The notes under the pieces were generated by a model, which searched no databases, was not told the DNA's origin, and worked only from the letters and a program-made list of their open reading frames with translations. A stretch of DNA of 64,000 bases from positions 124,001 through 188,000 of the forward strand of contig JAULBX010026718.1 of assembly GCA_032358255.1 (NCBI GenBank), given 5' to 3'. Of this stretch, positions 453 through 50,051 are shown piece after piece. This DNA comes from Heterotrichella gracilis (Eukaryota; Sar; Xanthophyceae; Tribonematales; Xanthonemataceae). The position numbers and the translations under genes were made by a program. Every line of letters begins with the position of its first letter. The stretch's first letter is position 1.

Positions 453-3400
453 ATGCACTCCGTGCGAGCGTTGCGCCTGGTAGCGAGCTCTGCAGCGCTC
501 TCTGCAGTGCAGCGCTGCAGGCACCAACCCAGGCGGGCGCTACCCTTCAACCACCACCTGCCACAACGCATGCAGGGCACAGGTATGGGGGGCACCCACC
601 CACACAATGCACTCACATGCAGCGACTTGCACGAGTTGCAGGAACATAGCTTGCGCCACTCGAATCTTTCTGGCCAGGCCTTGTGGCGTTTTTTGTGTTT
701 CCACGCAATGCATGCATATGCAGCTGAGGTACTGCATGCATATTTTTGGTTGTTGCCGCACACGCACATGGGCTGCTTGCAGCTGACCTGAGTGGCTCAT
801 ATGTCTATGTGCACTGGGTTATTTACCGCGTACACACTGCATTGCCTATTGCGTTCAAAGGTTGAAGGGCTTGACACGCACCCTAACCCTAGCCCACACC
901 CTAAAACCCTAACACCACCGTTCCCTCTCCCCTCCCCACAGGACCTTGCCAACCACTCACCACCCGCCACCTGCACTACCCCGCAGCACTACCACCATCC
1001 ACATCCGACGCCACAGCCACACCAGCACCCACAGCCGCCACCGCAGCGCCAGCCGAAACGGCCTCCACCCATGGCGACATAGCCCATGCCAATGAGGAAG
1101 TCTCAAGCTCCGGGTCGGATTCGGACGCTGAACCCCAGGGAGGGGCGATTGGGGATTTCAGTGTGATTAATTTCTACCACCTATCTGATATTGCCGATCC
1201 TTTCCAGGCAAGTGCAGTGCAGTGCTGTGCAATCTGCTACCGTTGGCATCGGTCTTATTGTCAATAAGAAATGAGCTGCAGTGGGGGAAACGCACTTTGA
1301 TGCAGTTGGGGACTAGCGCGGTGTGATTACAGGGATTCAGGGATTACAAAATTGTTGCAGTTCAGTGCAGTGTGCTACCGTTACCATCGGCCTGACAACA
1401 AGAAATGAGCCGCAGTGGTGGACTAACGCGGTGTGGGGATCAGGGATTCGAATGAATTAGGGATCAGAAAACCGCGGCCTGTTGTGGCCGCTGCGCGTCT
1501 ATCTAGGTGCGGCTAACCAGCATCACCATCACTGCTGGCATCGGCATTGCCATCAACCACCACCTCCGGCATCACAACATCTGCTGGTCTGTTGTTTCCG
1601 CTGCGCCATCGCCACGTGTGGAGTGTGGTGATGGCGCAGCAGGGGCAGGGCACTCGCAACTGTTCTGATGCCCGTGGGTGGTGGCGATGGCCATGCTGAT
1701 GCCAGCAGTAGTGGTCATGCTGGTTGTATGCCGATATACTCCATGTATGTGGCAGTGTCATATCTCGGCATTGAACCGATGCCGTACTGCAGTTGGATGG
1801 GAACATCGGCTGAGCACCGCAGTGAGACTGCTATGGCCTGTATAAATCACTCAACACTGCACTGGGTTGTGGCTACTCATGACTGGTTGCGCCCGCTCGC
1901 GCCACTCGGCACATAACTGAAGTTCTGGCTGATCATGTAAATTTTCAATATTGCACTGGACTGGTTGTTTCCAACGAAGCACTGAACACCCCTCCCTTTA
2001 CCTGGCCCCCAGATGGTGCGGGTGCATCGGGAGTATGTGGCAGCTGAGGGAGTGGACCTGCGGGGGCGCATCTACATCTCGGGTCAGGGGATCAACGCGC
2101 AGTTCAGCGGGCCTAGCCAGCAGGCTGTGGAGTACACAGAGTGGGTGGCGGGGCTGAAGGAGTTCCAGGTAAGGGTTTCCGCTAGGTTTTACGACTTGGC
2201 TTGAGGCGCCTCAAATGGCACAAGTGCACACTGTTCCCATTCGGCTCTGGGTAGGGTTTAGGGTTCCTGCATCTCTGCTAAATTGAAGTCTTTGGTGACC
2301 GCACAAGTTGTGACTGCTGACCTCATTCTGTCTCCTGTTGGAGCTGTCCCAATATGAAATGGAAAAGCAATAGAATAATGTACAGTAAAAAGTATATCCT
2401 TTATTCGTAATTGTAATTATTATCTTATTATTCTGTGCGCCTTGTTGCAGGGCCTGCGGTACTCTGTGCCGCCTATTGGAAAAGCAGATATTTCTAAAGC
2501 TGCACCCTTGACAAAAACATTTTATACATATCACACACACACATATACATTTAAGTTTAAGTATTATATGCAGGGCCTGCGGTACTCTGTGTGGCCCGTC
2601 GAGGAGCAGATGTTCCCAAAGCTGCGCCTCAAGTACAAGGAAAACCTCATCTCCCTAGCAGGGGGGGTGTCAAAACTACCCGTCACCGACCCCAGCGCCC
2701 GCGCCACCGCCCTCACCCCAGTGCAGTGGAAGGAGATGCTGCGGGACGCGCAGGCGGTGGGGCCCCAGGGGGGGAAGCAGGTGGTGGTGCTGGATGTGCG
2801 CAACGATTACGAGTGGGATGCAGGGCACTTCAAGGGGGCTGAGCGGCCGCTGGAGGTGCGGAATGCGGGGGGGAGAGAAATGCGCCCTGTGGGAAAACTG
2901 TCATTTCAATCTCAATTGTCTGCTTAGTTGTCCAATTTGGACCCCTCGCCATGCTGTATTGCACAACCAGAGCCTCTGTAAAGGGCTTTTTGGCCACATA
3001 CGCCTATACCATCGCCTGTAATGCCTACAGAACTAAATTTTAAACTATCATTTTGCAGGAGGAATTCAACGAGACCCCCACCGAGGACACCCCCGCCGAG
3101 GTGCCCCCCCACCTGTCCAATTTGGACCCCTCCACCCCCGTCATGATGTACTGCACGGGGGGCATCCGCTGCGACATCTACTCCACCTACCTCAAGCAAA
3201 AGGGGTTCCATAATTTGTACACCTTGGAGGGGGGGGTGCAAAATTACCTGAGGCAAGAGGGGGACGAGCTGTGGAATGGCAGCCTGTTTGTGTTTGATGG
3301 GCGCATGGCCATTTCAGCGGCCAGCATTGCGGAGCAGGATGGGGGGGAGGGTACGTGCGAATGGGAGGTCAGGGGTGGTGGGGGGTCACAGGTTTAGGTA

Positions 3401-5348
3401 CTTGGGGTATAATTATGGCGGCCGCATGGTTGTAAAAGGCAGGATTGGGGAGAGGGTAGAGTCAGCTGTGATGCGGAGGGGTTGCGCAAATAAAGGGTTC
3501 AGGTACAGGGGGTTTGTGGGTGTATGGCCATCTCAGTGGTCAGCATTGCAGAACGGGATGAGGGGGAGGGTACCAGGATAAGGGGCGCAGGGTTTGGGGT
3601 ATGGAGGCTGCGCAGGTCTATCACATCACCATTTTAAATCTGATCGCCATCCAATCTCATTTGGCGAGGGTGATAGCAGTAATAGAGAATCACGCGATCC
3701 ACATCCTTAGATCATTCACCCTCCATCCCAGGTGTATATCCCCATACTTTCCTCCTCCACCGCCTTGTTGGAACCTCTCTGAACCCCCGCTCACCCCCCC
3801 CCCACACACACCCCTGCAGCCTCTCCCGGAGCTGAGGACCTCCCAGCAGCGGTGGGGTGCCAGGTGTGCGACTCACCTTCGGCGCAGCTGCCGCACTGCA
3901 ACTGCGCCAACATCGACTGCAACAAGCTGTTTCTGGCTTGCTCTACCTGCAAGGTGGGTGCGGTGGGATGGGAGGGAGGGGGATGGGAACGGCGGGTGCT
4001 GCGTGGATAGGTAGGTAGGTTGGGGCGCTGGAGTTGAAATTGAGTCGTGGGTGCGTGGGTGGCTGGGGGGGCAAAATACTGGTGGTTGTCCATTGACCCG
4101 GCTGCTGCACTGCAACTGCGCCACGTTCGATTGCAACAAGCTGTTCCTGGCATGCGCTGCCTGCAAGGTGGGTGCGGTGGGTTGTGGGGAGTAGTGTCAG
4201 AGGGGTGGGGTGGTGGGCAGCAAGGTGGTTGCAGCAGGGGCAGATGGGTGTGGGGGGGGGGGGGCGCGGCCGGGGGTGGAGGGTGTGAAGGGGGGTACAG
4301 GGAGGGCAGGTGGTGGTGAGTGATCATCGTTCAGGCATGCTCGATCAGGAACAAAGGGGAATCATGCAGACATCACACCAGATGGGGCTTCCAGGACCCT
4401 GCCTGCCACCCCACCACGCCATCACCCGCACCACACCCACCCCACCCGCCTGAATCTTCCATATCACATGAATGAAATAACAAAATTTCATTATTTCTCT
4501 CTATATTTGTAAAATCTAAAAAACGAATGAATATTTTTGGCGCAGACCCAATACAAGGGCTGCTGCTGCGCCGCATGCATGGCCGCGCCCCGCCTGCTGC
4601 GCCCCGTCAAAACCGTCGGCTACTACGGTAACTGGGTACAGTACGCCGCTGGCGGCGCCGATGCCGACGCCGATGCCGATGGCGGCGGCGGGGATGTGGG
4701 TGCGCGCATGGCGTCGGGTCGCGGGCCCGGGCGCCTGTCGCGGCGACGGCGCCACGTGGCGGCTGCACGGGAGCGCGAGGCTGCCATCAGGGGGATCAAG
4801 GTGGAGCGGCGCAGGCTGGCCAAGGTGGGTAAACCCTAAAACCCTAAACCCTGAACCCTAGATCCAAAACACAAGATGAATTGTAGGGTAGGTGCAGCGG
4901 CGTCATGCTGTTACTGATTGTTGCAGCAGGCATCATGTAGTGACGAGGCTTAGCGCAGGGGGGATCAAGGGTAATGCACATCCTGGTGGTACACCATGAA
5001 GCAATTGGTGCATCAGTGTGGTGTGTACTCAATCACCGCCTTGCTCATGTGTAAATTTGCCTGCGCTAGGTGCACCCACCCCATGCTAACCCTCTTGGCC
5101 GCTATCACATGCTCATCCTCCTGCACTCCACATCATGCCAACCCCCCTTGAACCCCCCCCTCCCCCACCAGGAGCTGATGGCTGAGCGGGAGCGGTCAGG
5201 GCAAGGGGAGCAAGCGGAGGCTGCTGGTGGTGGTGGTGGTGGTGGTGGTGGTGAGGATGCGGGGGGGTTGACTGCCAAGGTTTCCCGCCTGGAGGAGGTG
5301 CAGCGGCGGCTGAGGGAGGTGCAGGTGGAAGGGGGCGCGCAGGGGTGA
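453..5348 (+). CDS. rhodanese-like protein with Cys-rich zinc-binding tail (TrhO/UPF0176, plant STR-like)
   Basis: Eight exons with matching phases give a 571-aa protein: 453-582, 942-1207, 2013-2168, 2574-2855, 3059-3350, 3820-3953, 4546-4824, 5172-5348. The first 90 or so residues are Ala/Arg/Pro-rich with few acidic residues, which suggests an organelle transit peptide. Next comes the N-terminal RNA-binding-like domain of the TrhO/UPF0176 family (RGRIYISGQGINAQFSGP in exon 3). The rhodanese domain follows, with LDVRNDYEWDAGHF near residue 255 and the active-site loop CTGGIRC (Cys about 310). After it lies a Cys-rich region (CQVC, HCNC, DCNKLF, CSTC, then GCCCAAC) that should bind zinc. The tail is basic, Gly-rich and coiled. 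TrhO enzymes hydroxylate U34 of tRNA; a plastid or mitochondrial tRNA role here is inference. The exon 2 donor is GC, not GT, and phase requires it. Two exon fragments are duplicated in its introns. Confidence 0.88.
2443..2510 (+). repeat. partial copy of rhodanese exon 4 start, with acceptor
   Basis: This intron segment repeats the acceptor CAG and the first ~20 codons of the exon at 2574. It reads GLRYSVPPIGKADISKAAP against GLRYSVWPVEEQMFPKLRL in the real exon. The frame stays open through to 2574, so use of the upstream acceptor would insert residues without a stop. The copy has diverged at conserved positions and looks decayed. Confidence 0.75.
4096..4181 (+). repeat. partial copy of rhodanese exon 6 end, with donor
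   Basis: About 80 bases repeat the 3' end of the exon finishing at 3953, including the Cys motif (HCNCATFDCNKLF against HCNCANIDCNKLF) and the donor GTGGGTGCGGTGGG. No acceptor precedes it, so it is unlikely to be a working alternative exon. Confidence 0.8.
4827..4863 (+). repeat. telomere-like CCCTAAA tract at a splice donor
   Basis: Immediately after the donor of rhodanese exon 7 lie four CCCTAAA/CCCTAAAA-type units. A similar tract (862-915) precedes the acceptor of exon 2. Confidence 0.75.
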
Positions 5349-5366
5349 TGGCGGAGGGGGGGGGGG

Positions 5367-5387: not shown

Positions 5388-7410
5388 ACCCAACCCAGCG
5401 GAGGTTGGGACGAAGGGTGGTGCAGTGTGCAGAAATCATTATGTTTTACGGTATTATTCATATCATGTGACATTTGCCTGCACCATCGATCATCAGCTGA
5501 GCTGGCTGGGATCTCCGAAAGGGCCAATGCATGCTGTAGGTATGTACCTATGGGCCATGCCGCATGCTGAGCGTTTGACTTTTCTCAGGCTGAGTGCGCC
5601 CATGCGCACTGTGAAATTTCTACTTGCAAGTGTATAACTATTTGGCAGCCATACCTCCTTGAAGGCGCTGCTGAGGCACACTGACAGTATATTTACACAA
5701 GATAAGGCTTTATGCCATTGTCAAAATACTAGTGGCGTACAGCCCAGACAACTAGGGGTTGTGTCACGATTCACCCATGTAGTACATCATCTGCAAATTT
5801 GGTGAAGCCAAGTTGAACCCGGTTTGGCAGAGAATCTGATGCAGCCTGTGTGTGTAACGTACAAGATGTTCAACAATGCTTGGCACAACTCATTTGCAGC
5901 GCACCACAACATCTGATCTAGTCTGGCTTAGCATGACCAGCTCATGTTGTTACAGCTGCTGCATTCAATTTGAATCATTATTAGATCCACTCGGACATCC
6001 ACACCTATACTCCAGGTCCTAATGGGACTTAATTAAGTGTTAATATGTGACACACATCGGCCACTGAAGATCATGGACTGTCTCGCCTGCCAGTCTGAGA
6101 GTAAAACTTTTTTGTCAGTGACACACGCAAGATAAGAAAGCAGACACCAAATTTGTGCCTTCAAAGGCGTAAATATCACAACCATCCATTACAAGCAGGC
6201 GGCTAGGATAATACATTGGAAGCAAGCGACGAGAAAGCGTCTGCATCATACACCATGCCCTCAAAAGCGTCAAGGTATTGAATAAACAATTTATGACGTT
6301 AATGGATCAATCCTGAATCCAGCCCTACCTGGCAAATTGATTCAGAATGCCTTCAACACCTATCCAGCATAAGATAAAAGGGGAAACCGTTACAGGAAAA
6401 AACAGGTGGCCGAACAATGTTCTTCTGCCACAGATGCCTTTTGAAAACATCTCCACAACATTTTGCCTGCTACCGCACAAGTTGACCCAAAATGAGTTGG
6501 GAGCTGGATGGGCAGCAACAAGCACCAGCGTTCGTATCGCAGATGAGACTCATTGGCAATGGGGACAGTGGTGGCTGTTGCGTATCCCTACTTTCGTCAC
6601 CCAGTGAGTTACAGCAAGGTAATGTCTGCTGCAGCTCCATCCAGCTCCAACGTATTGGGTCAGATCAAAAGCGTGCCTCCACCACAGCCTCAACCCACCA
6701 ATGAGGTGAAAGAGCATGATGAGCTCTGACAGGAGGAAGATCACCCATGTCCACTGTGAAAGGATGGACAGCAGCAGCAGGCTCAAGAGGCCAGGAGATG
6801 ACCGCCAGGCATGCCTGCACAATGGGATGCATTAACATGGTTCACTGAGTGCAAAATTCAGGTTAGCTTAAATCCAATCATAGGTGTGCTTAGCAAAACT
6901 GCATTAGGACCTTGTGCGGGGCTTCTAGTGCTGCTCAATGAGACTGACATAATGTTACCCTATTGGTGAACTGTTGGCCAATGATAGTAGCAGCTTGCAC
7001 TGCAAATGTTCAAACAGCGATAGCAGGCTACTTGAGTGCATATCACTTGCTTAAAATTGTTATATATACATTCTGGAAGGCCAAGGGCCTCCCGGGCTGA
7101 CATGGCGCACGTAGGAAAGCACGCGTGGTATAAGCAGTGTGAGCATAGGCCTGCCTGATATGTTATGTGCATGGGTTGACTGCTAACTTTGGCTTAGCAG
7201 AATAAATGTAATTAACTGTTAATAACTGTGATATACTTGTATAATATATAAGTAATCAATTTGATTGTGACTTTTAAATAAAATTACTTACTGGGGCTGT
7301 CTGCCCCGAGTATCGCTCCCAGCGAGGGTAAAGTATCTTGAGCTCGTGGAGTGGATGCCAACACTCCGCCAGAAAGCGGTGCATTCAACCCACTGTCAGG
7401 AAGGCTGCTA
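5388..7410. other. 2-kb stretch with no supported gene
   Basis: The composition is more AT-rich than the flanking genes. Open frames are short (under 95 codons), lack ATG starts in good context, and show no recognisable domain or spliceable continuation. It marks the start of the accessory region. Confidence 0.5.
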
Positions 7411-7414
7411 AGGT

Positions 7415-7553
7415 CGCACGCTGCCTGCATGCTGAAGCGCTTGGAGACGGTGGAGGAACAGCAGGTACAGGGTTTGCAAATGCATCGTATGCAAACCCTG
7501 TACCTGCTGTTCCTCCACCGTCCTAAAGCGCTTCAGCATGCGGGCGGCGTGCG
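7415..7553. repeat. long near-perfect inverted repeat (hairpin 1)
   Basis: Two arms of about 64 nt (7415-7480 and 7490-7553) are reverse complements with only a few mismatches, clustered near the foot; the central 33 or so pairs are perfect. The loop is about 8-10 nt. Length and pairing resemble an algal long miRNA or siRNA precursor, or a fold-back transposon. No coding function is seen. Confidence 0.9.
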
Positions 7554-7688
7554 TCCTTGACAGTTGCCTTGACTTGAACCCCTTCACCACCAACGCCGCA
7601 GCGGCTGCAGCTGCACTGACGCAGCGGGGTGGATGGACGAAGGCTTCAAATCCAGGCAACTGTCAAGGCCGCCCGCCGCCCGCATTGC
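7535..7688. repeat. second inverted repeat sharing an arm with hairpin 1 (hairpin 2)
   Basis: Segment 7535-7578 (CGGGCGGCGTGCG, then CCTTGACAGTTGCC) pairs with 7644-7688. Its first part is also the right foot of hairpin 1, so the two folds compete for about 18 nt. The loop between the arms is itself partly complementary. Confidence 0.8.
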
Positions 7689-8325: not shown

Positions 8326-8330
8326 TCCCT

Positions 8331-8545
8331 GTTGCTCACATGATGGCACAGGCGTCCCTGTCTAAACCCTAAACCTTAAACCCCTTGCTCACCTGGTGCC
8401 ACAGGCATCCCAATTTAAACCCTAAACACTAAACCACTTGTTCACCTGGCGGCACAGGCGTCCCAGTCTAAACCCTAACCCCTAAACCCCTTGCTCACCT
8501 GGTGCCACACGCGTCCCAGCTCAAACCCTAAACCCTAAACCCCTT
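8331..8545 (-). repeat. four tandem exon-edge copies separated by telomere-like repeats
   Basis: On the minus strand the 3' edge of the unnamed-family exon plus its donor (GGGACGCCTGTGCCACCAG then GTGAGC) occurs four times, near 8331, 8385, 8439 and 8490, before the longer exon remnant at 8550. Each copy is joined to the next by one to three TTTAGGG-type units on that strand. Only about 25 nt of exon is kept each time. Confidence 0.88.
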
Positions 8546-8549
8546 GCTC

Positions 8550-8722
8550 ACCTGGTGGCGCAGGCGTCCCAGTCACAGCAATTGGATGCCCCTCGCTTGC
8601 CTCCCACGCCTAGCTCAATCACGTTCGCAGTGGACAGGCCGTCTGCCGCAGCGATCAGCCGCCTCCCCCACTGCTCTATGGGATCGTCCAGCAAGCCAAA
8701 GATCCTGTTCATCAGTGCATCA
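8550..8722 (-). pseudogene. broken copy of the unnamed ~84-codon exon
   Basis: The minus strand reads FGLLDDPIEQWGRRLIAAADG, then NVIELGVGG, clearly matching the C-terminal two thirds of the intact exons at 14.0-16.5 kb. A single extra base before the PIAVTGTP motif throws it out of frame, and the N-terminal third is missing. It is therefore a decayed copy. Confidence 0.7.
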
Positions 8723-9245
8723 AAATTTAATTAGTTCTAAGATCAACAGCAAATGCTTAATCAATGCCTTTGAGCCTCAAGGAGCAAGGGCTGAATATGA
8801 GTGTGCTTTACTTTACTTACATATTTAAATCTTGCTTCCGAAATTTAAGCATTCAGAGCCTACAGGTTTCACCCGCGTTTGAACCCTCTCAGCAGCCAAA
8901 GCAGCCAAAGCGCCAAATATCATAAAATTTCACTGGGGCGAGACAAATATCGATGAAAGGAGGCATATACCTGGGTGCATTTGTCCATCCCAGTCATGGG
9001 GCCATCTTGGCTGCCATCTTGGCCAAGCCCCCATGCTCGAGCAGTGCGCGTGGCACAGGTCTGTCCGGTTGGTTGCCGCCAGCTGGCGGGGGGTGGCAGG
9101 GTGCCAGGTGGCTGCTCCAGCTTCACACGTGCAGGCTGTGGAGAAGCTGTCCCAGTAGCTGCGGGAGCGGCGGGTGGGGGGGGTCCTGGGTAGCGGTGTG
9201 GGGTTTAGGGCAGATTAGGATTTGAGGGGGTGGCTGGAATCCTGG

Positions 9246-9268
9246 ATTAGGGTTTAGGGTTTAGGGTA
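9246..9268. repeat. interstitial telomere-like TTTAGGG tract
   Basis: Three TTTAGGG-type units in a row, in plus orientation, between two remnants of the unnamed exon family. Confidence 0.8.
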
Positions 9269-9426
9269 AAGATGACTGAGAGGCTGGGCATGGGCATGGT
9301 ACCTGTTGCCATACAAAGATCCAGCTGTTGTGGAGGCGGGAGGCCCATTTGTGACTGTGTGGAAGTTCACACGCAAGACCCGAGAAGATGGTCGACCTAC
9401 GTTTCTGCACAAATGGGGTACATTTC

Positions 9427-9612
9427 ACCGCCTGGTCATGAGGACCACTTCCACCATGGGTGCATGCTCTTGAGCGTGGGAGTAGACTTCCCACAGTGTG
9501 TCCACACAGGGCCCCTGCCAGCCAAACACTGTGCACAAAACACTGCCAGTACTGTGCACAAACCAGTGATGCACTTGCCCAACTACCAGAAGGCCTCCAG
9601 CATTGAACATGC
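9427..9612 (-). repeat. dispersed ~190-bp repeat, copy 1 (exon type 3 remnant)
   Basis: This block recurs at 10,878-11,073 at high identity, and a shorter piece recurs at about 13,256-13,310. On the minus strand it reads VDTLWEVYSHAQEHAP, then MVEVVLMTRR before a GTGAAA donor, so it may be an exon. The copy at 10.9 kb differs by one base in this frame, so at least one copy is dead. I recognise no domain. Confidence 0.65.
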
Positions 9613-9638
9613 GTGCAAGTTTTTCCTGCCCTACCTTC

Positions 9639-9759
9639 CCCATGTCCATGCGCTTTGTCATGCCTTCCATCCTGAAAATGTCTCCTGGCCCCACTCCACT
9701 GCCTCCACTTTATCCCGCAGCAATTTGTGCATCCTGTCAAAAGCATGAACCCCGGGATC
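9639..9759 (-). pseudogene. helical exon type 2, copy 1
   Basis: The minus strand reads DPGVHAFDRMHKLLRDKVEA and continues to a stop before the GTAGGG donor. It aligns with DSGCDIIDRAHSLLRGIW at 11.2 kb and DTGGSVFTSKQRNVGEKAEA at 13.6 kb. The shared pattern is D-x-G, then a basic amphipathic helix. This copy ends early and is probably decayed. The family is not recognised. Confidence 0.4.
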
Positions 9760-10655
9760 CTACTTCTCACTGCAGAAGTTTTTAATATAATTCTTACCCC
9801 GGTCAAAAAACAACAATGGAGATTACATCTTGGAGAAGTACCGGGCAAGAAATGGGACAACAGCCACAATTATCCTACCACAAATTGGCTTTGTATTTCC
9901 CACAACCTTGCGCAGAACCCACCAAAATCCCTATCCTTTTCGTTCGAACTGGGGAGGCAACTTGGCACACTAAACTCTAGTACGTTTTGTGACAAGTCAC
10001 CTACGCAAAGAGAAGGACAGGGACTTTGCTGGATCAGTGCAAGGTTGCGTGAGAAACGATTGCCATTTTTGGTAGGATATCTGTGGCTGTTGTTCCCACT
10101 CCCTTGCTTCATACTTTTATTTGGTGATATTCTTCAACAATGCCCATAATTTCAAGCTTGCAGCTAGCGTTCTTGGTTCAATTAAGAAAAATATTCTAAA
10201 GCCATGCAAAAAAGATGATATATGCAGGTGCGGGTGCAGCACCAGGAGAATGGCAGGTCATGGCAAGTTCATGACTCATCACTGTGACATAATGGGGCAT
10301 GCCTAATCCCTCCCCACCCACCGGACTAGGCACTGGCCCAGCGCCTGGTAGACTATCTGATGTACAAGTGCGTGCAGATGGTGGCTGAAAACCCTGACAG
10401 AACCCTACTTATATTGTCACAACCCTTGTACACCTCCCCAACCTGCTTCTGCACCCTAGGACTTGTGGTTGTAACCACTCATTTCCTCCCCTTTACCCAG
10501 GACACCTCCTTGCTCCACTTACATGCAGCACTCCTGGTTTGCATTGCGCTGGTGCCCCTTTACCATCTGCTTCAACCACCCAGGTTGCCCAGCTCTTCCA
10601 AACAGGGGTTGCGATACGCCACTCCTCCCATTGCCAGATTGCTTGGTTGCGTCAC

Positions 10656-10803
10656 CCAGTCATGCTCCACCACAGCCTGGAGACATCGACGGTGGGGAGG
10701 AACGCCACTGGGATACATCTGGTACCAGATTTTCCCACTGGTGAAGCTTCTGCTCCTGTTCCCCACCATCGATCCCTTTCAAGCTGTGGCGGAGCATGAC
10801 TGG
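10656..10803. repeat. 148-nt imperfect inverted repeat (hairpin 3)
   Basis: Outer arms start with CCAGTCATGCTCC and end with its exact reverse complement at 10,803; about 40 nt of each arm pair with a few mismatches, and an inner palindrome (ATCTGGTACCAGAT) closes the loop. Precursor-like RNA or a small fold-back element are both possible. Confidence 0.8.
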
Positions 10804-10877
10804 AGCCCAGAGCAGAGACATCAGCCATACCAGCGCAGCAAAGGCCAGACGAGGCCTACTTGGTATCCCTGCACATG

Positions 10878-11073
10878 GGGTACATTTCACCGCCTTGCCA
10901 TGAGGACCACTTCCACCAAGGGTGCATGCACTTGAGCGTGGGGAGTCAACTGTACACAGTGTGTCGACACTGGGCCCCTGCCAGCCAAACACTGTGCACA
11001 AAACACTGCCAGCACTGTGCACAAAACAGTGATTCACTTGCCCAACTACCAGAAGGCCTCGAGCATCAAAGAT
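10878..11073 (-). repeat. dispersed ~190-bp repeat, copy 2
   Basis: Second copy of the block at 9427-9612, keeping order and spacing relative to the helical exon next to it (11,098-11,231). The shared two-part arrangement shows that a segment of at least 350 bp was duplicated. One extra base relative to copy 1 changes the minus-strand frame. Confidence 0.75.
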
Positions 11074-11097
11074 GTGACACACTGTGCAAGCCTGTAC

Positions 11098-11231
11098 CTG
11101 TGCTGCCTCCACCATGTCCATGCGCTCGCCATGCCCTGTCTTCCTGGAGGTTTTCTCCTGCTCCCATATTCCCCGCAGCAAGCTGTGCGCCCTGTCAATA
11201 ATGTCGCAGCCACTATCCCTGGATGGCCTTG
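11098..11231 (-). CDS. helical exon type 2, copy 2 (unnamed family)
   Basis: An open exon-like stretch follows acceptor CTGCTGCAG and ends at donor CAG/GTACAG. It reads SRDSGCDIIDRAHSLLRGIW and continues with charged residues to MDMVEAAQ. It is predicted helical. It is the only type 2 copy with both splice sites and an unbroken frame in which the best residues match copies 1 and 3. I cannot assign it to a complete gene or family. Confidence 0.4.
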
Positions 11232-11494
11232 CTGCAGCAGGCAACGCCTCCTTCACAATTACAATTGCCCATTTTCACAAAACAACCAAAAGGACTTCAT
11301 CAAAACTGAGTGTCTTCATTTATCAAAATCGTCCTGAAACATCTGCCAGACAGCGTCCAATTGCCTGCGATGTTGTCCAGATATTATCCACAGCACGTAC
11401 CAAAATCCAAGACATTGTTAACAACAGTCACAGATAATATTTGTGGCTATAGTTCACACTGTTTTGGATAGTGGTGAATGTTATGGACATATTA

Positions 11495-11730
11495 TTGCAA
11501 AAACGTTTAGACGTAACCCCCCAAAAATATTTTGGTAAAACGTTTTGACCTGATCAAACTCGAAATCGTAACGGTCGGACGACTTGTAACGACTTCGAAT
11601 CGAGCTTTGACGACGTTGTACTAACTTGGATCAGGCATAGACGAGCGTTACAAACGTTTGATCACTTTTCGATCAGTTTGAAACTATCGATTTTTTTTTT
11701 TGAGGGGGTCATGTCTAAACGTTTTTGCAA
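11495..11730. mobile_element. MITE, Stowaway/mariner-like, with TA target duplication
   Basis: A 236-bp element begins TTGCAAAAACGTTTAGAC and ends with its reverse complement GTCTAAACGTTTTTGCAA; the inverted repeat covers about 28 bp including a run of C/G. TA flanks both ends (11,493-11,494 and 11,731-11,732), as expected for Tc1/mariner-related MITEs. The inside is non-coding. It is plainly non-autonomous. Confidence 0.85.
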
Positions 11731-12120
11731 TATGTGGGCAACATTCCAGGCATATCGTCCTACCACAGGCTCATGTTTTGGTGGATGCATCCATTTGGGG
11801 CCACGCATGTAGTGTAATGTAATGTAGGCTTAGTTTCTCGTATTATGTGTTACTAACCCTGCCCAAGAGCCAGAAAAATCCCTTTCCTTCTCAAGATCAC
11901 GGAGGGCTCTCACCACAATAAGGATCACGATGATGATAGCATGGACATGCAGGTACAGTACGTGCAAGTCCCGCACCCAAAACTTCATTCCAAAATGGGA
12001 CGAGTCTTGCAAGTCCTTGCCATAATCACGATGATATTCTCTGTGGTGAGAGTCCTGAGATCTTGAAAAAGATGGTGATATTGCAGGCTACTGCGCAAGG
12101 TTGCGGGAAACACGACCCCA

Positions 12121-12510
12121 GTTTGAGTAACTGTGGCCCGCAGCGTGTATATAAAAAACACCAAGCAACCTGGCAAGTCCTGGGCAAGTAGTCACCACCC
12201 CACCCGCACCTGGGAGAACCGCATCTGCAGAGCATTACCGGTAATGGGTCCCAAGCATGTTTGAACTCTTTTACACCCACACAACTGGACCAATCATCCC
12301 CAACGCACGTCGTACAATGCCTGGCAACACAAACAGTGTAAGTGAACCTCAGCAGAGAAGGGGTGCAGCAGCAATTGCAAAGAAGTCCTCTTCAAAGTGT
12401 AAAATTAACGCAATTTATTATTAAATTGCCCACGATCCAAGCAAGCCGGCTGATGTCCGCACTTGAACACGGTTCCCAAGATCGCCAACACTGCAAAGTA
12501 TTTAAACCCT
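12121..12510. repeat. dispersed repeat, copy A
   Basis: About 390 bp that recur at 17,271-17,815. The first 120 bp (around CGCAGCGTGTATATA and CACCAAGCAACCTGGCAAG) are nearly identical; the rest is more diverged but keeps order (CGTACAATGCCTGGCAA, CGCAATTTATT). No coding potential is evident. Confidence 0.85.
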
Positions 12511-12984
12511 ACACCAGCACTAGCCTAGTCCGCTTGGCAGTGACTTCAGTGTATGTTATTTTTTATGTGGTAAAAAAAGTCCTCCTAGTGCAGCGTGGCA
12601 ATGCCCTAGGATCAGCTGTCATCAGTGGCTGGGACTAGGAGGACCAGGATGACATATAATTAATAACACAGCAAAGCATATGTTAGTCTAACACCAAAAC
12701 TGCGTCATCCCTGCTTCAAAAGTCCCACCAATAAAACACAGACAAAAACCAGGACTCGCGTAGGGTCACCCTGGTAAAACCAGTGACACTGTGTGGAACT
12801 GACAGACTTCAGCTCTCATATTCTTTGCCCTCAGGAAGGGTAATCCTATAGACATGCCTGCAGTCACAATTTGTGAGGACAGAAAGAGTGATGCATTCCC
12901 TACCCAAAAATGGTACCCCGGCCTACACAGCAGTGCAGTTGCACTGTAAATTCTGCTTCTATCTCCCTGTATAAGAGGCAACCC

Positions 12985-13120
12985 CACAAAACACACATGG
13001 ATTACAAACCTGTACCCTAGGCTATAGAAAGCCTTCCAAATCAGGAGCATGAGCACAGCGACGACAAACACAAAGATGAAAAAAGCTCCAAAGGCTCCGT
13101 TGCAAGCCTACTAAACCCTG
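12985..13120 (-). repeat. segment similar to 25,290-25,500
   Basis: About 115-130 bp share ordered blocks (AGCACAGCGACGACAAA, TTGCAAGCCTACT) with the region near 25.4 kb. On the minus strand both read as a hydrophobic stretch (VVAVLMLLIWKAFYSLG here, VVAVLVHPFWKSF there), but stops and shifts differ between the copies. Probably remnants of a duplicated membrane-protein gene; not called as a gene. Confidence 0.55.
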
Positions 13121-13576
13121 CCAATATTAATAGCTTGCACTTGGGTCACACTGAAACTCGTCACTGACATTTATGCACTGCACTTCAACAAATCCAACTT
13201 TTCAAACCCTGATGGTAGCTCCCAGCAGAGGCGCTCGCTCATCAGCGGGTGGAATGGATGTGTCCACACTGGGGGTGCTGCTGGGACACTGCGCACAAAA
13301 CAGTGATTATTTAGTCACACGAATTTCAGCAATGCAGCCAGGTTAGCAGTCAGTCTTGGACATGTAGCACCATGCAATTTCCTCCTGGCACTGTTTTGCA
13401 AGCGTTTATTTTTGAGCAATTTGGGTCCAGCTGGATCACGTCAGCCCATATACTGGCCGGGACCCTAGGCATACCTAGGGCCCTGGACCCTACCAAACAT
13501 TGTGCAACAGTGGGTACATTGAACCAACTGCAAGAGGGATTTAAGCCTGAAATGAAACATGTGCTAAAGGCTGTAC

Positions 13577-13688
13577 CTGCCCCTCAGCTCTGCATCCCCT
13601 GCATTCGCTTGTGCTGCCTCTGCTTTTTCTCCCACATTCCTCTGCTTGCTGGTAAAGACGCTGCCACCAGTATCCCAGAACGTCGCTG
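13577..13688 (-). CDS. helical exon type 2, copy 3 (unnamed family)
   Basis: Runs from acceptor TTCAG to donor GTACAG. Read in phase 1 it gives ATFWDTGGSVFTSKQRNVGE followed by KAEAAQANAGDAELRG, a hydrophilic, probably helical peptide aligning with the copies at 9.7 and 11.2 kb. It lies directly downstream (minus strand) of the four intact exons and could be the next exon of that gene. The function is not known. Confidence 0.4.
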
Positions 13689-14015
13689 CTGAACACAAGA
13701 ACATGATTACAAAGTGCCCTTTGTGCATCAGTCAGTGCAGCTGCAATTGACGACTCGCACTTCACAAATTTTGGTGTGTGGGTAGTGATTTGCTTTGCAC
13801 AGCAAATGTGGTTGCAAACTAGCAGTGAGGGCTACTTTGATTATGAGTACATGAGGTTTGCCTACCTCTGGCCTCATGAAATGGGATCAAGCAAAAGGAG
13901 GGTTTGCGTGTTCACTGGATTCACCAACTTTTAAAGCATTGTCAAAGGTCCCCTCCGTCTCAGTACCTCACCTGGTGGCAAACCCTAAACCCTAAACCCT
14001 AAACCCCTTGCTCAC

Positions 14016-14267
14016 CTGATGGCACAGGCATCCCAGTCACAGCAATCGGTTCCTGCTCGCTGCCTACCAAGCCTAGCTCACACAAATTTTGGAGGTACAG
14101 CCCGTCTGCCCCAGTGGTCAGGCGTATCCCCCCCAGCTGCAAAGAAGACGCATCCAAGCCAAAAACTCCGGCGATGTCCATTGGATTCAGGCGCCCATTG
14201 TGTGGGACAAACTTCTGGCAGATCACCCCACACTGCAGGTAGATCAGCTGCGGAGGCATGGCGCAAA
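14016..14267 (-). CDS. unnamed family exon, copy 4 (symmetric phase 1-1)
   Basis: A 252-nt exon from acceptor CACCTGTAG to donor CCACCAG-type/GTGAGC, phase 1 at both ends. It contains MPPQLIYLQCGVICQKF, FGLDASSLQLGGIRL, GADGLYLQ and SEQEPIAVTGMPVPSG. Length, phase and frame are kept in four copies that differ at roughly half their residues, which argues for selection on the protein. The pattern (hydrophobic strand, helix, FGL, LGGR, ADG, final IAVTGTPV strand) resembles a small beta-grasp domain; a likeness to Crinkler-type 'header' domains is a weak inference. An exon-edge echo plus CCCTAAA tract lies just below it (13,966-14,015). Confidence 0.6.
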
Positions 14268-14710
14268 CTACAGGTGTGGAAGAAATGCTTATCAGTGACA
14301 GGAGTGCACACAACCAGCTGCCACAGTCACAGTATGATTGTGTGGCCACTAGTTTGCAAACAGGCTGCAGCGTGTGCGCATGGGCATCTTCAATGTGACA
14401 CACGCAGTATGCAGCAAGCAATCCGGCGCACATGGGCAAAAGTGAGGGACGTTGTCATTGATGACATCCACTTGCAGGCCGTGTGCTCCAGTGACCCTCA
14501 ACCCTAGACCCTAAAACAGGCCGTCTGCTATAGTGCAGAGGGCCGTCTGCTCCAGTGCAGATTTATTGTATTTATTATATATTTACCTATTTATGCATTT
14601 CCAGTGCAGAGGGGCTACGTTGCTGTACTCTTGTGTGCAGATGGTGCCGTGCACTATGCACCCTTCCTTGCAAGCTTCCCTTATTGGTTAGGTGGGGACA
14701 CCGGGTCCCT

Positions 14711-14816
14711 GTTGCTCACCTGATGCCACAGGCGTCCCATGTAAACCCTAAACCCTAAACCCTAACCGTTTGCTCACCTGATGCCACAGGCACCCCAGTG
14801 TAACCCTAAACCCTGC
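14711..14816 (-). repeat. two exon-edge echoes with telomere-like tracts
   Basis: Two short copies of the exon 3' edge and donor (near 14,711 and 14,770) precede the real edge at 14,824. They are joined by three CCCTAAA units and by CCCTAAACCC. Confidence 0.85.
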
Positions 14817-14823
14817 TGCTCAC

Positions 14824-15075
14824 CTGGTGGTACAGGCGTCCCAGTCACAGCAATCGGGTCCTGCTCGCTGCCTCCCACGCATATCTCAAACACATCTTCA
14901 GTGTACAGGCCGTCTGCCCATATGGGCATGCGTCTGCCCCCCAGCTTGATGGAAAAGGGCTCCAAGCCAAAACATCCGCCAATATCCTTTGGATTCAGCC
15001 GCCCATGATGTGGGACAAACTTTTGGCAGATCCCACCATACTGCAGGTAGATGAGCTGCGGAGGCATGTCGCAAA
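14824..15075 (-). CDS. unnamed family exon, copy 3 (symmetric phase 1-1)
   Basis: A 252-nt exon with the same splice phases and layout as its neighbours. It contains MPPQLIYLQYGGICQKF, GRLNPKDIGGCFGLEPFSIK, LGGRRMPIWADGLYTEDV and SEQDPIAVTGTPVPPG. It is closest to copy 4, with which it shares the MPPQLIYLQ start. Any number of such exons can be joined in frame because both ends are phase 1. Confidence 0.65.
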
Positions 15076-15147
15076 CTGCAAGTGTGGAAGAAACGCTTGT
15101 CAGTGACAGGGATTAACCAACTTTGAAAGCATTGTCAAAGACCCCCT

Positions 15148-15268
15148 GTCTCAGTTGCTCACCTGATGGCACAGGCGTCCCAGTTCAAACCCTAAACCCT
15201 AAACCCCTTGCTCACCTGGTGCCACAAGCATCCCACTTCAAACCCTACACCCTAAACCCCTTGCTCAC
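15148..15268 (-). repeat. two exon-edge echoes with telomere-like tracts
   Basis: Copies of the exon edge and donor near 15,160 and 15,212, each followed by CCCTAAA-type units, stand next to the true edge at 15,269. The sequence upstream of the first echo (GAAAGCATTGTCAAAG) is also shared with 13,930-13,950. Confidence 0.85.
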
Positions 15269-15529
15269 CTGGTGGCACAGGCGTGCCGGTCACAGCAAGT
15301 GGCTGCCCCTCACTGCCTCTCATGCGCTGCAGCTCAACGATATCCCAATAGGACAAACCATCTGCCGTGGTGATTGCGCGAGTGCCCCCAAGCTCCAAGG
15401 AAGAAACCACCAAGCCAAAACAGGCAGCGATGTTCTCCGACTTCAGCCTCCTACCCCTGGTGGCAAATCTTTTGCACACCCCTTCAATCTCCAACCAGAT
15501 GCGTTCCCAGCTTGATTCAATGGGCCATG
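15269..15529 (-). CDS. unnamed family exon, copy 2 (symmetric phase 1-1)
   Basis: A 261-nt exon, three codons longer than the others but again phase 1 at both ends. It contains WERIWLEIEGVCKRF, FGLVVSSLELGGTR, TADGLSYWDIVEL and SEGQPLAVTGTPVPPG. It is the most diverged intact copy; the in-frame length change supports coding constraint. Confidence 0.65.
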
Positions 15530-16209
15530 CTGCAAGTGTGAAAGGGCGCTGTAAGTGACAGGGGTGCATACACACGTTGCATGAGATGTACAGTAGCGGT
15601 GTGTCAAGAAAGGTGTTGACTACCTGTATACACGCAGGCTGCATGGTTGCCAAGTGCGGATTTTGCTTCCAAAGCAACGTTTGCAACTGCAACCAAACAC
15701 TCGCATATTGCTAGGGTTGGTGGGTGAGCAGAGATTTTACTACTAGTTCCATTAAAAATTTCCAATTTGCTAGCTAGCTAGTGTACATTGTAAAGAACTT
15801 GTCAAGAACACTGGGGGCCCCTCCTCTCACACCAGCACCACCAGCTACAGATACCTACTCATTGGACTAATCAAGGACATGCTAGACATGCACCGAGCAC
15901 AGCAAGGGCTGCAAGCAATTAGCTGTGCCCTTTTACCCAGCAGAGGGTAACAGGCAGCATTCCTGGTAGACGCTAAGGTGTTCAATTCGAGAGGAAATGC
16001 CGGCACCTACTACACGCCCTGCAAGCCTTGCAAGGCAATTGCAACTGTGCTGGGCCATGCAGAAATGCCACATGTGTGCACCATGTGTGTGCGGAGTGGT
16101 TCAAAGGATGGGTTGGACACAGAGGGAAGTGTGCGCCTTCACACCACCAAGCTACAGGAGGGTGTTTTGTGAGGAGCACCCTCCCATTAACCCTACATCC
16201 GTTGCTCAC

Positions 16210-31394: not shown

Positions 31395-34300
31395 ATGCGC
31401 ACTGTTGCTATGGGCAGCAACACAGCAGTCGGCCCAAGGCCTGGGTCAGCCTACCAACGCCATGCTTTCAAAGGCTGTCCGCTGCGTGCGTCTGCAGCAC
31501 CCAGGAGCCGCAGCCAAGGCCAAACCACCCACCACCACCGGTGGCAACACCCCCATCCAGCCCGCTCCCACCACCCCCGCCCCCACCCCAACCGGTGTTC
31601 CGTGCAAGAGGGCCAACCAACAACCTCAGACCATCCTGTTCCAGCCACGCCCACCACCACAGACTCAGTGGCAGGTGGTGTTGGGGTGGAGGAGGTGACC
31701 CTCGACCAGAAGCCCACAAGCTACCGGTTACAGCCCTTTGTAATAGAGGTAAGGCTACAAAGTGAGCTAGGCCATCATTCCTTGACACCCTGAACCGTGT
31801 ATGTGGACCACCTAGTCGCCGCACCTGGCTAACCCTAGCTAGGGTGAGCTTGGTATGTGCACCCCACAATGGTATTTGGAACCGCCCTGCTGCAGCCCTT
31901 AGTAACTTGGCTGATGTTGGCGCTCACCTGCTGCTGGTGTGGTTTGTAGGGAGCGGCGAGAGACATGATGCTGCAGTTCCGGTCAGAGGTACGCACATCC
32001 CTGGGACGGGGCCGTTGGCGCCATTGCGAGTTTGATCGTGTGGCAGGCCACCCCGCCACACCCTAGTTCACCCCGTTGCCGCTTAACGCCTGAGCCGTTT
32101 ACTACTCTTTATACACACTGCCAACAAGGATCATATTTACGTGCAGATGGAGGTGGTGGTGTTAGGGGTTTTGTGGGTCTAGCCTACACCCTACACCCTT
32201 GGCAATGAGCTCACTAGCTAGAGTGGAGTCTCCCAGGGGCCACGGTGGCCCTGTCATTCCTCCCTTGCCATTCAGCAACGTGCTATGTATGTGTACTAGC
32301 CACCATGTTTCCACGCAGGTGGGGGTGGCGGGAGGCACCCTGCTGGTCCATCCGGTGACCCCTGCCTGGCTCAAGGACTCGTGTGACCTCCTCACAGACT
32401 CGTTTGCAGATGCAATGGGCTACCTGCCCGTGTACAGGTGACACATACATGTCGACCCTAGCATCAACCTGGCGCCTACCCTATTGTCAACCCTAACCAA
32501 TGGCCAACGTGGGGCTACCTGCACGTGTACATATACCACGCCACACTGGCAACTCGCAACACTAATCATTGATACTAATGCCAACCCTAGCATGAACTGT
32601 AGATGCAATGGGCTACCTGCCCGTGTACAGGTGACACGCCGCGCTTGAAGCCTACTCATCGACACAAATTGTTGACCTAGCATGAACACTAGCAGTGACC
32701 TGGCGCCAACCCTAGGGTCACCTCTAACCAGTGATAAACATGGGCCACCTGTATACGGGTGGATCACATGAAGTTGCAACCCTATTGTAACCCTAATGCC
32801 ACTTGCACCTTCATGCATTCCGGGACTGCCCACGCATTGGTGTCCATTTCTGATTGCATTATCAACCACATGCGTGCAGATATTTTTTCATTCCCATACC
32901 CCTCAAGCAAGTCCTTCTCTTTTCGACGCCTACACCAAGCGCAGTACGTCATCAGCCCCATGTGTGAATTGCAGGCGGTTTCTGCGCCGCAACATCGCCC
33001 AGTACCTGCATCACCACAAGGACCTACCCCCCAAGGCAGTGGTGCTAGTGGGCATCCTGCAAGAAAAAGGCCCCTCCTCCAGTGGCAGCAATGACACCCA
33101 CCGCAGCGGGTCAAGCTCTGAAACCAGTAGCAGTGGGAGCGGCAGCGATGGCGAAGAGGGTAACCTGGAGGGTAGCGTGATGACGTCTTTTGACATCAGT
33201 GGGGCGGCTGCGTTTGTGGTGAACCAACGGGAAGAGGGGGGGCGCTCTGACGGGGAGGAGGACATGCCGCCTTGTGTGTCGGAGGGCAAAGCGCGGCGAG
33301 CTGGCCTAGGTGCGCTGCTGGGGGCATGGGGTTGTCGTGGTTAGGGTAGGGATTTTAACTGGATTTTGAGGGTAGTACGGTCCCGCATCGTCAGACATCA
33401 GGGGCCCGGCTGCGCTTGTGGCGAGCCGGGAAGAGGATGGAAGCCCCCACTGCCTCTGCCCATGGCGTGCTCACGCTCCCCCTCATGTGGTGCCCACAGG
33501 CGCCCCTCCGCCTCCCGCTCCCAGCGGCCGCCTGGTTGCGATTGTGGAGGTGTCCTTCAGTGAGAGCAGCAGGTCAAAGTGAGTGTGGGGGTGCATGTGC
33601 TTGTGCATGAGCATGTGCAAGTTGGTGTGCTGGCGCATTTGCAGCAACGTGGAGAGGCGGTGAATTGTTGCATGTTGATAGCCGGTGGTTGTTGCAGATT
33701 GCAAGGAGATTATTGATCTGAATGCGTTTGAATGGCATCATGGATTATCGCCCCTATCCACAAGGTCCCCAAATTCAATATCAAAATTGAACGGTGGATT
33801 CCCTCCCCAGGTACCTGACCCTGAACGCCCCCCCTGACTGCGCTTACGTGTGCAACATGGCGGTGGACCCTAGTTACAGGCGGAGGGGGTATGGGCGGAA
33901 GCTGCTGGCGGCTGCGGAGGAGCTGGCGGCGCAGGCGGGCATGCGAGATATGTACCTGCACCTGCGGTGGGTGGGGGTGGGGGGATGGGGTTTGGGGTGG
34001 GTGTGGTAGGGTGGGGGGTAACGGGCATGAGGGATATGTACCTGCACCTGCGGTGGGTGTGGGTGGGGGGAGAGGCGGGCATGAGGGACATGAACCTGCA
34101 CCTGCGGTGTTTGGTGTTTGGGGTGGGGACGGTGGGGGTTGTGCATGCAGATCGTGGGGCGGGTGGGGCAAATGATTCATGTACCTGCGGTGGGTGGCTC
34201 CTGCATTGGCCCTGGTGTGCAGGATCACCCTAATATAACTAACCCCCTGGGCACCCGTCACTTACCCAGCCCTGGACCCTTATGTAGGGTGAAAGACCGC

Positions 34301-35790: not shown

Positions 35791-40632
<4,842 letters not shown>

Positions 40633-47901: not shown

Positions 47902-48189
47902 TGGGTTGTAAGCCTTGCACTGCTGCCCAGTACGTTCCAGCAGGCCTCCTTGCGAGGTTATAGCTACACGCCTGCCTATGTTGGTGCTTCTTTGCGCTTC
48001 AAAACGTTTCTACATAAAGCATGCATGTACGTTCCAAGCAAAAAACAAATTAAACGCAATTAATATATTATTTCATGGAATAAACCAAAAATCGGTCGAT
48101 TATCGAACAGTATGAAGTGCACCCGAGCCGCCAACTTCGCCCTCTTTCAGTTGTGTTCAGGATTGTAGAGGAGGTGGTGCTGGTGCAAG

Positions 48190-50051
48190 ATGCCGCACAT
48201 ATCGTACTACCGTAACTGTAAGTACCACCCACAGCTGCGTTGGCAGCACGCAACGCCACCCATTCCTGCCCATGTCATCCTGCATATGCATGCACATGTG
48301 CAACACCCTTTCTGGCCAGTAATGTAACCTGCACGCCCCATCCCACCCTCCAGACGGTAAGACCTTCAAGAAGCCCAGACGCCCCTTCGAGAAGGAGCGC
48401 CTGGATGGCGAGCTCAAGCTGGTGGGCGAGTTCGGCCTGCGCAACAAGCGCGAGCTCTGGCGCGTGCAGATGGTTCTGTCCAAGATCCGCAAGTCTGCGC
48501 GGACACTGCTGACCCTGGACGACAAGGACGCCAAGCGCATCTTCGAGGGGGAGGCGCTGCTGAGGCGGATGTACAAGTATGGGCTCTTGGATGAGCAGCA
48601 AAACAAGCTGGATTACGTGCTGGCACTGACCCCCCAGGACTTCCTGGAGAGGCGCCTGCAGACGCTTGTGTTCAAGCTGGGCCTCGCCAAGAGCATCCAC
48701 CACGCGCGCGTGCTCATCAGGCAGCGCCACATCAGGTGGGTGCAGTGGGATGGGGGGGTAGATAGCGCAGATGGTGGCGGGAGGGGGGGGCTGCAGTGGA
48801 GCAGGGGGGTGCAGCAGTGGAATGGGTGGGGTATGGTATGGGTGTTGGTGATGTGGGTATGGGTATGGGTATGGATGGTGGTGATGTGGGTATAGTGGAG
48901 TGGTATGGATGGTGGTGGGGTGGGTATAACTGCACTGGTATGGGTGGTGTGCGGTGGGGAACGCTTGGCACGCAACGGAAGCAAACAGCTGGAACCTTCG
49001 TGAGCGGTCCTTCCAGCGGTCCTTCAAGCTGTGTGTATGAAAGCCCATTGTATGCGTTGCCAGCACTGTATACAAGGGTTTGCTATCAGTATGCGCTGGC
49101 ATGGTGAACTGACACCTGCAGCTGAAAAGCGCATCGCACACACTCCTGGGCACCCCCGTGTTACGACTCGTCATTAAGCAAGCTCTGCTATGTACTGCTG
49201 GGTGTGCCTCACATCGATGCATTTCACAAGAGAGTGCATTTCACAAGAGAGTACATTCATCAATGCCAGGGTGTGATGCGCGTGGTTTCCAACCCGAGGC
49301 ACCCCCTCAAAATTAACTGTGGGTGCTTGTGCCGCAGGGTGGGCAAGCAGATCCTGAACACCCCCTCCTTCCTGGCGCACGTAACCAGTCCCCTACACCC
49401 TAGTTAGTCACCTAACCCCTAAACCCTTGGTGCCGCAGGGTGGGCAAGCAGATTGTGAACATCCCCTCCTTCCTGGTGCGCGTGGACAGCCAGAAGCACA
49501 TCGACTTTGCGCTCAACAGCCCCTTCGGCGGCGGCAGGGCAGGGCGCAACAAGCGCAGGTCACAGAAGTGAGTGAAACCTTTAATTCCCTGAACCCTAAA
49601 ACCCTTTGGCGGCAGCTGGGCTGGACGCAACAAGGGCAGGTCGCAGATGGGAAATAAAGCATGGCACGTTCACCAAGCACTGCAGCTTTGGAGTGCATGC
49701 ACCATGTGCTTGCTCTGCCACCCATGTAATCATCCTGGGCCTGCTGGTGTAGTAACTGTCTCCCAAGACGATACACATGGCCACCTGTTTGCGTTACTGC
49801 TGCACCATCATCATGTATGCTGCACACGCAACACTGTGCCAGGGAGAGGAGTCTGACAGAGTCCTTGCATGTTGCTCAGTCCCGCTACTGAGACACCGCC
49901 CTGCAGGTCCAAGAAGGGCGGGAAACTCTAAACCCTAAACCTCAAACCACCTTAAACCCTACTTTTGTACCCTAAACCCTAATTTCCCTGTCACTGCAGG
50001 TCCAAGAAGGGCGGCGGTGGTGACGATGCTGGGTCCGACGACGAGGAATAG
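48190..50051 (+). CDS. RPS9: 40S ribosomal protein S9 (uS4)
   Basis: Four exons in phase give 196 aa, the usual eukaryotic length: 48190-48217, 48354-48735, 49439-49567, 50000-50051. The sequence is typical throughout: [32 protein letters not shown], the S4 domain [20 protein letters not shown], then [20 protein letters not shown]. It ends in an acidic tail [11 protein letters not shown]. uS4 is one of the first proteins to bind 18S rRNA. The first exon is 28 nt. Three partial copies of exon edges, with CCCTAAA tracts, lie in introns 2 and 3, although this is a highly conserved housekeeping gene. It is divergently placed to the exonuclease gene (288 bp between ATGs). Confidence 0.97.
49333..49438 (+). 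repeat. echo of uS4 exon 3 start with acceptor and telomere-like tract
   Basis: Copy at 49,333-49,386: GCCGCAGGGTGGGCAAGCAG, then ...CCCTCCTTCCTGG, matching the true exon at 49,433-49,486 for about 50 nt. CACCTAACCCCTAAACCC lies between them. If the upstream acceptor were used, the frame would read [16 protein letters not shown] and then reach a stop. Confidence 0.93.
49568..49660 (+). repeat. echo of uS4 exon 3 end with telomere-like tract
   Basis: At 49,608-49,650 the intron repeats the last ~40 nt of exon 3 (GGACGCAACAAGGGCAGGTC against GGGCGCAACAAGCGCAGGTC). The donor is lost in the copy. CCCTGAACCCTAAAACCC separates it from the exon. Confidence 0.88.
49893..49999 (+). repeat. echo of uS4 exon 4 start with acceptor and telomere-like tract
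   Basis: CTGCAGGTCCAAGAAGGGCG at about 49,902 exactly matches the acceptor and start of exon 4 (49,995). It is followed by about 55 bp made almost wholly of CTAAACCCTAAACC-type repeats, then the real acceptor. Use of the upstream acceptor would give SKKGGKL and a stop. Confidence 0.93.

Follow-up and report, generated by a model that had tools for sequence, protein, structure and literature searches.

Copies of exon edges and telomere-like tracts near splice junctions in a 64-kb window of the Heterotrichella gracilis genome

How do introns come to contain partial copies of the edge of the exon that they adjoin, and are the exon-intron borders themselves the target? The question is raised by a 64-kb stretch of intron-rich nuclear DNA from the xanthophyte Heterotrichella gracilis (contig JAULBX010026718.1, positions 124,001–188,000; hereafter the window), in which such copies recur in several genes together with tracts of TTTAGGG, the heptamer of the plant telomere type. 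The copies are probably scars of staggered breaks that were mended by end joining, with fill-in of the overhangs and telomeric filler. The window has ~54% GC and a single 100-N gap at 17382, and is the sample for all of the results given here. There was no existing annotation, and a small gene finder using codon usage and splice-site weights was therefore written; a first run over-predicted (615 exons) and was replaced by a second with 131 exons. The 97 exons scoring at least 12 (187 edges, 24% of the window) entered the edge tests and the 34 scoring below 12 were excluded, and every edge statistic rests on these gene models.

Exon-edge copies were established by repeat search, direct reading and gapped alignments of 18 loci (Table 1). 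All 16 copies named in a preliminary description of the window (six on the acceptor side and ten on the donor side) were located, mostly starting within 10 nt of where it had placed them. Fourteen of the 16 cross the splice site; in the alignments, those at 49602 and 56942 end just short of it. Identity in the gapped alignments ranges from 46/61 (gaps counted) to 21/21, and the aligned copies contain 9–67 nt of exon and 0–35 nt of intron, with the exon share the larger in 14/18. Copy and original are in direct orientation, tens of bases long and separated by 4–157 nt of filler at the 18 aligned loci. With repeats searched in both orientations, 19 direct families were found and three inverted pairs, and no inverted pair falls at a listed edge. 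Two copies come from the interior of an exon rather than its edge (2929–2947/3114–3132 and 33192–33225/33394–33427).

The copies are well above chance and specific to their own introns. Local repeat pairs number 48, compared with none in five local dinucleotide shuffles, and a more sensitive search for local direct repeats finds 54 pairs in 23 loci (0.0 in 10 shuffles). At a score of at least 32, 10/73 donor edges and 5/75 acceptor edges (15/148 in total) match within their own intron, whereas the same edges reach score 32 against other introns in 0.23% (donor) and 0.02% (acceptor) of trials. This cross-intron control bears out the proposal that each copy is specific to its own exon, and rules out a dispersed element or introner. 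Intron birth by tandem duplication of AG/GT was also rejected, the donor-acceptor register being found in 0/73 at scores of at least 9 (0.32 expected); low scores show a slight excess (4 versus 2.3 at score 7 and, with gaps, 6 versus 2.9 at score 20).

The window contains 48 perfect heptamers, a single one of them within a predicted exon, and 36 telomere-like tracts (0.4 in shuffles), none in predicted exons. Relative to the gene, 17 tracts are G-sense and 18 C-sense, and one is intergenic. A tract is centred in the filler between copy and original for nine of the 16 listed copies (0.54 expected; filler at the three array loci was measured from copy to exon edge), and in a tenth case (22790–22933) tracts overlap both the filler and the repeated unit. 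The preliminary description had placed telomeric units between copy and original in most cases, which compares with nine of 16 by this count. For 14 of the 36 tracts the centre falls between two copies of a masked local repeat (circular-shift mean 1.3, P = 0.0006); such intervening stretches account for 4.5% of non-coding bases.

Break repair with telomeric DNA, as had been proposed earlier, fits these observations best, telomeric filler being seen between the copies. If a double-strand break close to a splice junction were staggered, overhangs of some 20–90 nt would be left, and fill-in of both would duplicate the stretch between the nicks (T). Filler, whether telomeric repeats (synthesised by telomerase at a free 3′ end, or captured) or other sequence, would then be joined between the ends, such that repair would give X-T-filler-T-Y. 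If T includes a donor or acceptor, survival of the protein would require continued use of the exon-proximal splice site, leaving the other copy within the intron as an 'echo' that has a splice site of its own. Some units would later be amplified to small arrays, copy number differing among paralogous introns. The closeness of the tracts to junctions would perhaps reflect frequent breaks there, or G-rich splice-site ends that are good telomerase primers.

An array of five paralogous exons with a unit of ~80 aa (8552–16441, minus strand) bears on both polarity and array growth. Copies after the donor number four at 8551 and two each at 14823 and 15268; donor 14015 has one truncated copy and donor 16209 none in the 260 nt read. 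The intron-distal copy in three array introns reads GTGAGCAAC into the non-array intron, as does the empty-like 16209. Filler-side copies read GTGAGCAAG into the tract at 8551 (one copy GTGAACAAG), 15268 and 14015, and GTGAGCAGC or GTGAGCAAA at 14823. This junction polarity matches the arrangement predicted for X-T-filler-T-Y. Introns 14015 and 15268 share sequence beyond the copies, and copy number therefore changed after their split; the pattern fits insertion of filler and a second copy, followed by array growth and loss. Four stop-free open reading frames (ORFs) over the copies of the exon array have no Pfam match at E 0.01.

Slippage of the ordinary minisatellite kind, at tracts that are G-rich or telomere-like and with no telomerase break repair, would account for the five of the 18 aligned loci that are arrays (at 8.3, 14.7, 15.2, 32.4 and 33.9 kb), which have 53-nt and other units in varying copy number. 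The remaining aligned loci, however, carry a single copy with its own filler, and slippage is distinctly unlikely as the general explanation. The possibility that the copies were created by the assembly can be raised from the 100-N gap and from a Trebouxia genome in which, according to the part of the report consulted, telomeric repeats caused misassemblies (PMC12712428); most copies nevertheless diverge from the original, in the extreme case by about a quarter with gaps counted, and also between genes, and an artefact is scarcely credible.

Table 1. Positions of exon-edge copies and associated tracts in the window, with identities from the alignments.
Feature	Position	Strand	Identity	Remarks
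Copy of acceptor edge 2573	2446–2506	+	49/61	Original 2569–2628; TrhO/rhodanese-like gene; AT-rich filler of 62 nt lacking a telomeric tract
Copy of donor edge 3350	3512–3573	+	53/63	Original 3292–3354; absent from the preliminary list
Copy of donor edge 3953	4101–4191	+	80/92	Original 3887–3978; 122-nt G-rich filler
Telomere-like tract	4830–4870	+		Follows donor 4824 by 5 nt; no copy detected
Array of 53-nt unit (exon edge, donor, telomeric filler)	8332–8551	-		Four copies; adjoins donor 8551
Paralogous intron start, donor 14015	13967–14015	-		Telomeric tract, then one truncated copy
Two copies of donor edge 14823	14707–14823	-		Telomeric filler; paralogous exon
Two copies of donor edge 15268	15155–15268	-		Telomeric filler; paralogous exon
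Paralogous donor 16209	16181–16209	-		Empty-like, no copy in 260 nt read; short degenerate telomeric stretch
Copy of predicted donor edge 20034	19930–19973	-	36/45	HCO3_cotransp/Bor1-like gene; telomeric filler 19974–20011
Copy of donor edge 21787	21715–21735	-	19/21	Telomeric filler 21736–21782
Copy of donor edge 22915	22790–22849	-	46/61 with gaps	Flanking telomere-like tract
Copy of acceptor edge 23061	23228–23269 gapped (23214–23269 ungapped)	-	36/42	148-nt filler without tract
Copy of donor edge 32437	32598–32637	+	39/40	Weaker copies also near 32505 and 32740
Copy of donor edge near 33966	34022–34071	+	47/50	GNAT-type exon; another copy at 34076
Copy of acceptor edge 36651	36708–36738	-	28/31	AAA ATPase gene; telomeric filler 36658–36707
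Copy of acceptor edge 49438	49329–49382	+	49/54	uS4 gene; 47-nt telomeric filler 49383–49429
Copy of donor edge 49567	49602–49647	+	39/46	uS4 gene; 35-nt telomeric filler 49567–49601
Copy of acceptor edge 49999	49901–49921	+	21/21 (exact)	uS4 gene; 72-nt degenerate telomeric filler 49922–49993
Copy of acceptor edge 57008	56942–56967	+	22/26	44-nt filler without tract
Near-perfect 32-nt tandem pair with acceptor-like site	61738–61800 (61738/61770)	+		No predicted exon; not on the preliminary list

Systems with parts of this anatomy are known, and the view in the preliminary description that no described system of this form was known is not supported. In the portions of the literature drawn on here, mammalian telomeric insertions at double-strand breaks carry target duplications at 4.6% of rodent and 16% of primate loci (PMC2246262), duplications at horse telomeric insertions are ascribed to staggered breaks (PMC7215372), and fill-in by CST-Pol alpha at staggered breaks gives small tandem duplications (PMC8355091); the comparisons that follow refer to the same portions and to comparable parts of the other papers cited. 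Like mammalian interstitial telomeric sequences (PMC2246262, PMC7215372), which are absent from human exons, the tracts in the window are short, occur in both orientations and are in some cases accompanied by target duplications; unlike them, duplications are common here and the tracts cluster at splice junctions. The 31% of human tracts that are intronic was deemed compatible with random insertion, the sections consulted making no mention of position within introns (PMC2246262). Such random placement, which is reported for human and is not a defining property, does not describe the window, where 16/21 tract-bearing gaps have a tract within 30 nt of an edge versus 6.9 expected (P = 0.0002). 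The copies resemble CST-guided Pol alpha fill-in duplications (PMC8355091) in being direct, tens of bases long and attributable to staggered ends, but are separated by filler that is often telomeric.

Further likenesses are partial. Rogers and Bendich 2025 (PMC11782384) likewise ascribe direct repeats near exon-intron borders to break repair, but pair the 5′ border of an intron with its 3′ border, whereas both copies here come from the same border, and comparing the 5′ with the 3′ borders in the window yields no strong matches. The same heptamer is found in Arabidopsis and rice telo boxes (PMC3022908), for which telomerase acting at free 3′ ends has been proposed; telo boxes favour 5′ untranslated regions, whereas the tracts here are in non-coding gaps near splice sites. 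Duplicated splice sites can also arise with introners and tandem-duplication intron gain (PMC9860276, PMC4974935), from which the present copies differ in having neither a dispersed family nor a donor-acceptor register. Judged by titles and the starts of abstracts, none of the open-access matches listed dealt with splice junctions bearing telomeric tracts or copies of exon edges, in a search that covered only a minority of subscription papers. What is new is the density, how often duplication occurs and the clustering at splice junctions; the break-repair anatomy is known.

Several points weigh against a break-repair origin. The insertions are deduced indirectly from the window itself rather than from empty alleles or orthologues, many filler junctions are not cleanly telomeric, and the fillers of 7/16 listed copies have no centred tract. 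By cluster, only 5/17 tract clusters lie between copies of masked repeats, and many tracts are therefore without a duplication visible to this search. Masking of the tracts in the gene finder brings one of them into a predicted exon, and target duplications, common here, are the minority in mammals.

The second question is whether the borders are targets. The tracts give the firmest sign that they are favoured, because proximity of a tract to an edge is independent of exon conservation, although splice-adjacent bases may be more constrained and so retain tracts longer. Eighteen of the 36 tracts are within 30 nt of an exon edge (4.4 expected for uniform placement and 7.3 for placement in the same gap). 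Among homology-backed genes 11/13 gaps have a tract near the edge versus 3.9 expected, or 4.9 with tracts masked, and the outcome for tracts is the same in this subset and in a tract-masked run of the gene finder. Stricter exon cut-offs weaken the proximity, which is still above expectation (7/15 gaps versus 2.4 at score 20 and 6/13 versus 1.6 at score 25).

For the copies, the best pair covers a predicted edge in 13/23 loci (uniform placement mean 4.9, P = 0.00005). Simulated random duplications with purging of exon interiors and neutral decay place 11–13% of loci at an edge; raising this rate to 21% for slower decay of exon pairs still gives P = 0.0002 for 13/23, and with the exon array counted once 12/22 loci are at an edge (24% rate, P = 0.002). 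A circular shift that takes account of clustering finds 16/187 edges inside copies versus 7.9 (P = 0.003), or 13 versus 5.3 without the exon array (P = 0.0013). Within 20 nt of an edge, 8.2% of exon bases belong to copies, compared with 3.7% of those deeper than 60 nt; for non-coding bases the share is 5–7% up to a distance of 250 nt, the zone that holds the intronic copies themselves, and 1.9% farther out. Score-32 matches are found for 1/79 exon-interior controls (Fisher P = 0.013 relative to edges) and 2/46 intron-interior controls (P = 0.37), both of the latter being in copy-bearing introns. At score 26 the counts are 16/148 for edges, 2/79 for exon interiors and 5/46 for intron interiors; edges therefore exceed exon interiors and do not exceed intron interiors, which equal them at this laxer score, a point against border targeting. 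Within the window, exon edges are enriched relative to exon interiors, and not significantly so relative to intron interiors.

These numbers bear on two opposed explanations. If junctions were true hot spots, through R-loops, splicing-linked nicks or splice-site ends that prime telomerase, tracts close to edges (also in homology-backed genes) and the excess of copies at edges over the simulated and shifted expectations would follow; with clustering kept, however, the border excess of duplications is only 2–2.5-fold, which counts against border targeting, as does the weak contrast with intron interiors. A border-targeted process is possible, although we rather doubt it. Alternatively, duplications and telomeric insertions might both be random, with border cases merely standing out because exon-interior events are purged and intron-only pairs decay about twice as fast. 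Decay could imitate a border excess of up to about twofold, intron-interior copies are present, and 7/23 loci lie outside exons and away from any confident edge. Ascertainment alone is nonetheless unlikely, given the excess of edge loci that persists at the raised rates and the tract proximity, with its caveat of longer retention beside splice sites. A real though modest excess at borders is present, to which detection bias may contribute.

There is no good evidence for selection on the copies. Copies differ from the exon in 17/172, 22/164 and 28/169 cases at the first, second and third codon positions, respectively, the slight third-position excess being non-significant (chi-square ~3.3, calculated by hand); mismatches at all codon positions resemble those of a freely decaying copy, with no clear coding constraint, and mutually exclusive or alternative coding exons are thus unsupported. 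Thirteen copied splice sites were scored. The exact 9-mer is retained by 6/8 donors, and 2/5 acceptor copies outscore the original. Were the tracts or duplicated sites selected elements that aid or tune splicing, the retained donor 9-mers, the 18 tracts within 30 nt of an edge and the C-sense orientation of 5/6 acceptor tracts within 40 nt would be explained. Tracts at donors, however, are of mixed orientation (6 and 6 within 40 nt), the donor copies at 20034, 22915 and 49567, which are outside the scored set, are altered at the junction, and the copy of acceptor 23061 has lost its AG; selected splicing elements are a highly improbable explanation.

Genes in the window were named by profile matches and include those for a TrhO/rhodanese-like protein (matches to exon fragments, some below curated cut-offs), an HCO3_cotransp (Bor1-like) transporter, an AAA ATPase, ribosomal protein uS4, a DUF1499 protein and a Ulp1-type protease; the match for the GNAT-type exon is below curated cut-offs. 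The uS4 exons, as read by eye, join in frame and give the expected protein, the best solved-structure relatives of which we take to be land-plant ribosomes. No RNA families at gathering scores and no tRNAs were found in the window. Other repeats include two overlapping hairpin-type inverted repeats at 7405–7685 (74 nt at 89% and 66 nt at 80%) that resemble miniature inverted-repeat transposable elements, a direct duplication (9410–9611 and 10872–11074; 90–93% alike, with ~1.46 kb spacing), a 35-nt inverted repeat at 11493–11732 with 170 nt between the arms, and a 23-nt minisatellite at 23756–23875 with AAGGTGGGTG-type stretches that resemble splice donors.

Viral contigs were also searched. 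Queries with the uS4 exon, the transporter exon and one unit pattern found no relatives among them. A scan for telomeric 21-mers returned 22 contigs, all of which were profiled. The telomere look-alike contigs were set aside as unrelated, the ORFs of L003 and L014 appearing phage-like by eye, without a family search. In the five that were read closely (L001, L003, L005, L014 and L017), AACCCCTAAACCC-type motifs are often located just 5′ of start codons.

A broader reading, which we put forward tentatively, is that splice junctions are preferred sites of telomerase and fill-in repair in this lineage, and that introns may grow from their edges by telomeric filler and a duplicated splice site, thereby supplying spare splice sites. 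If general, this would tie telomere maintenance to the growth of introns and the birth of alternative splice sites, and would provide datable scars with which to map the sites of breaks in genes.

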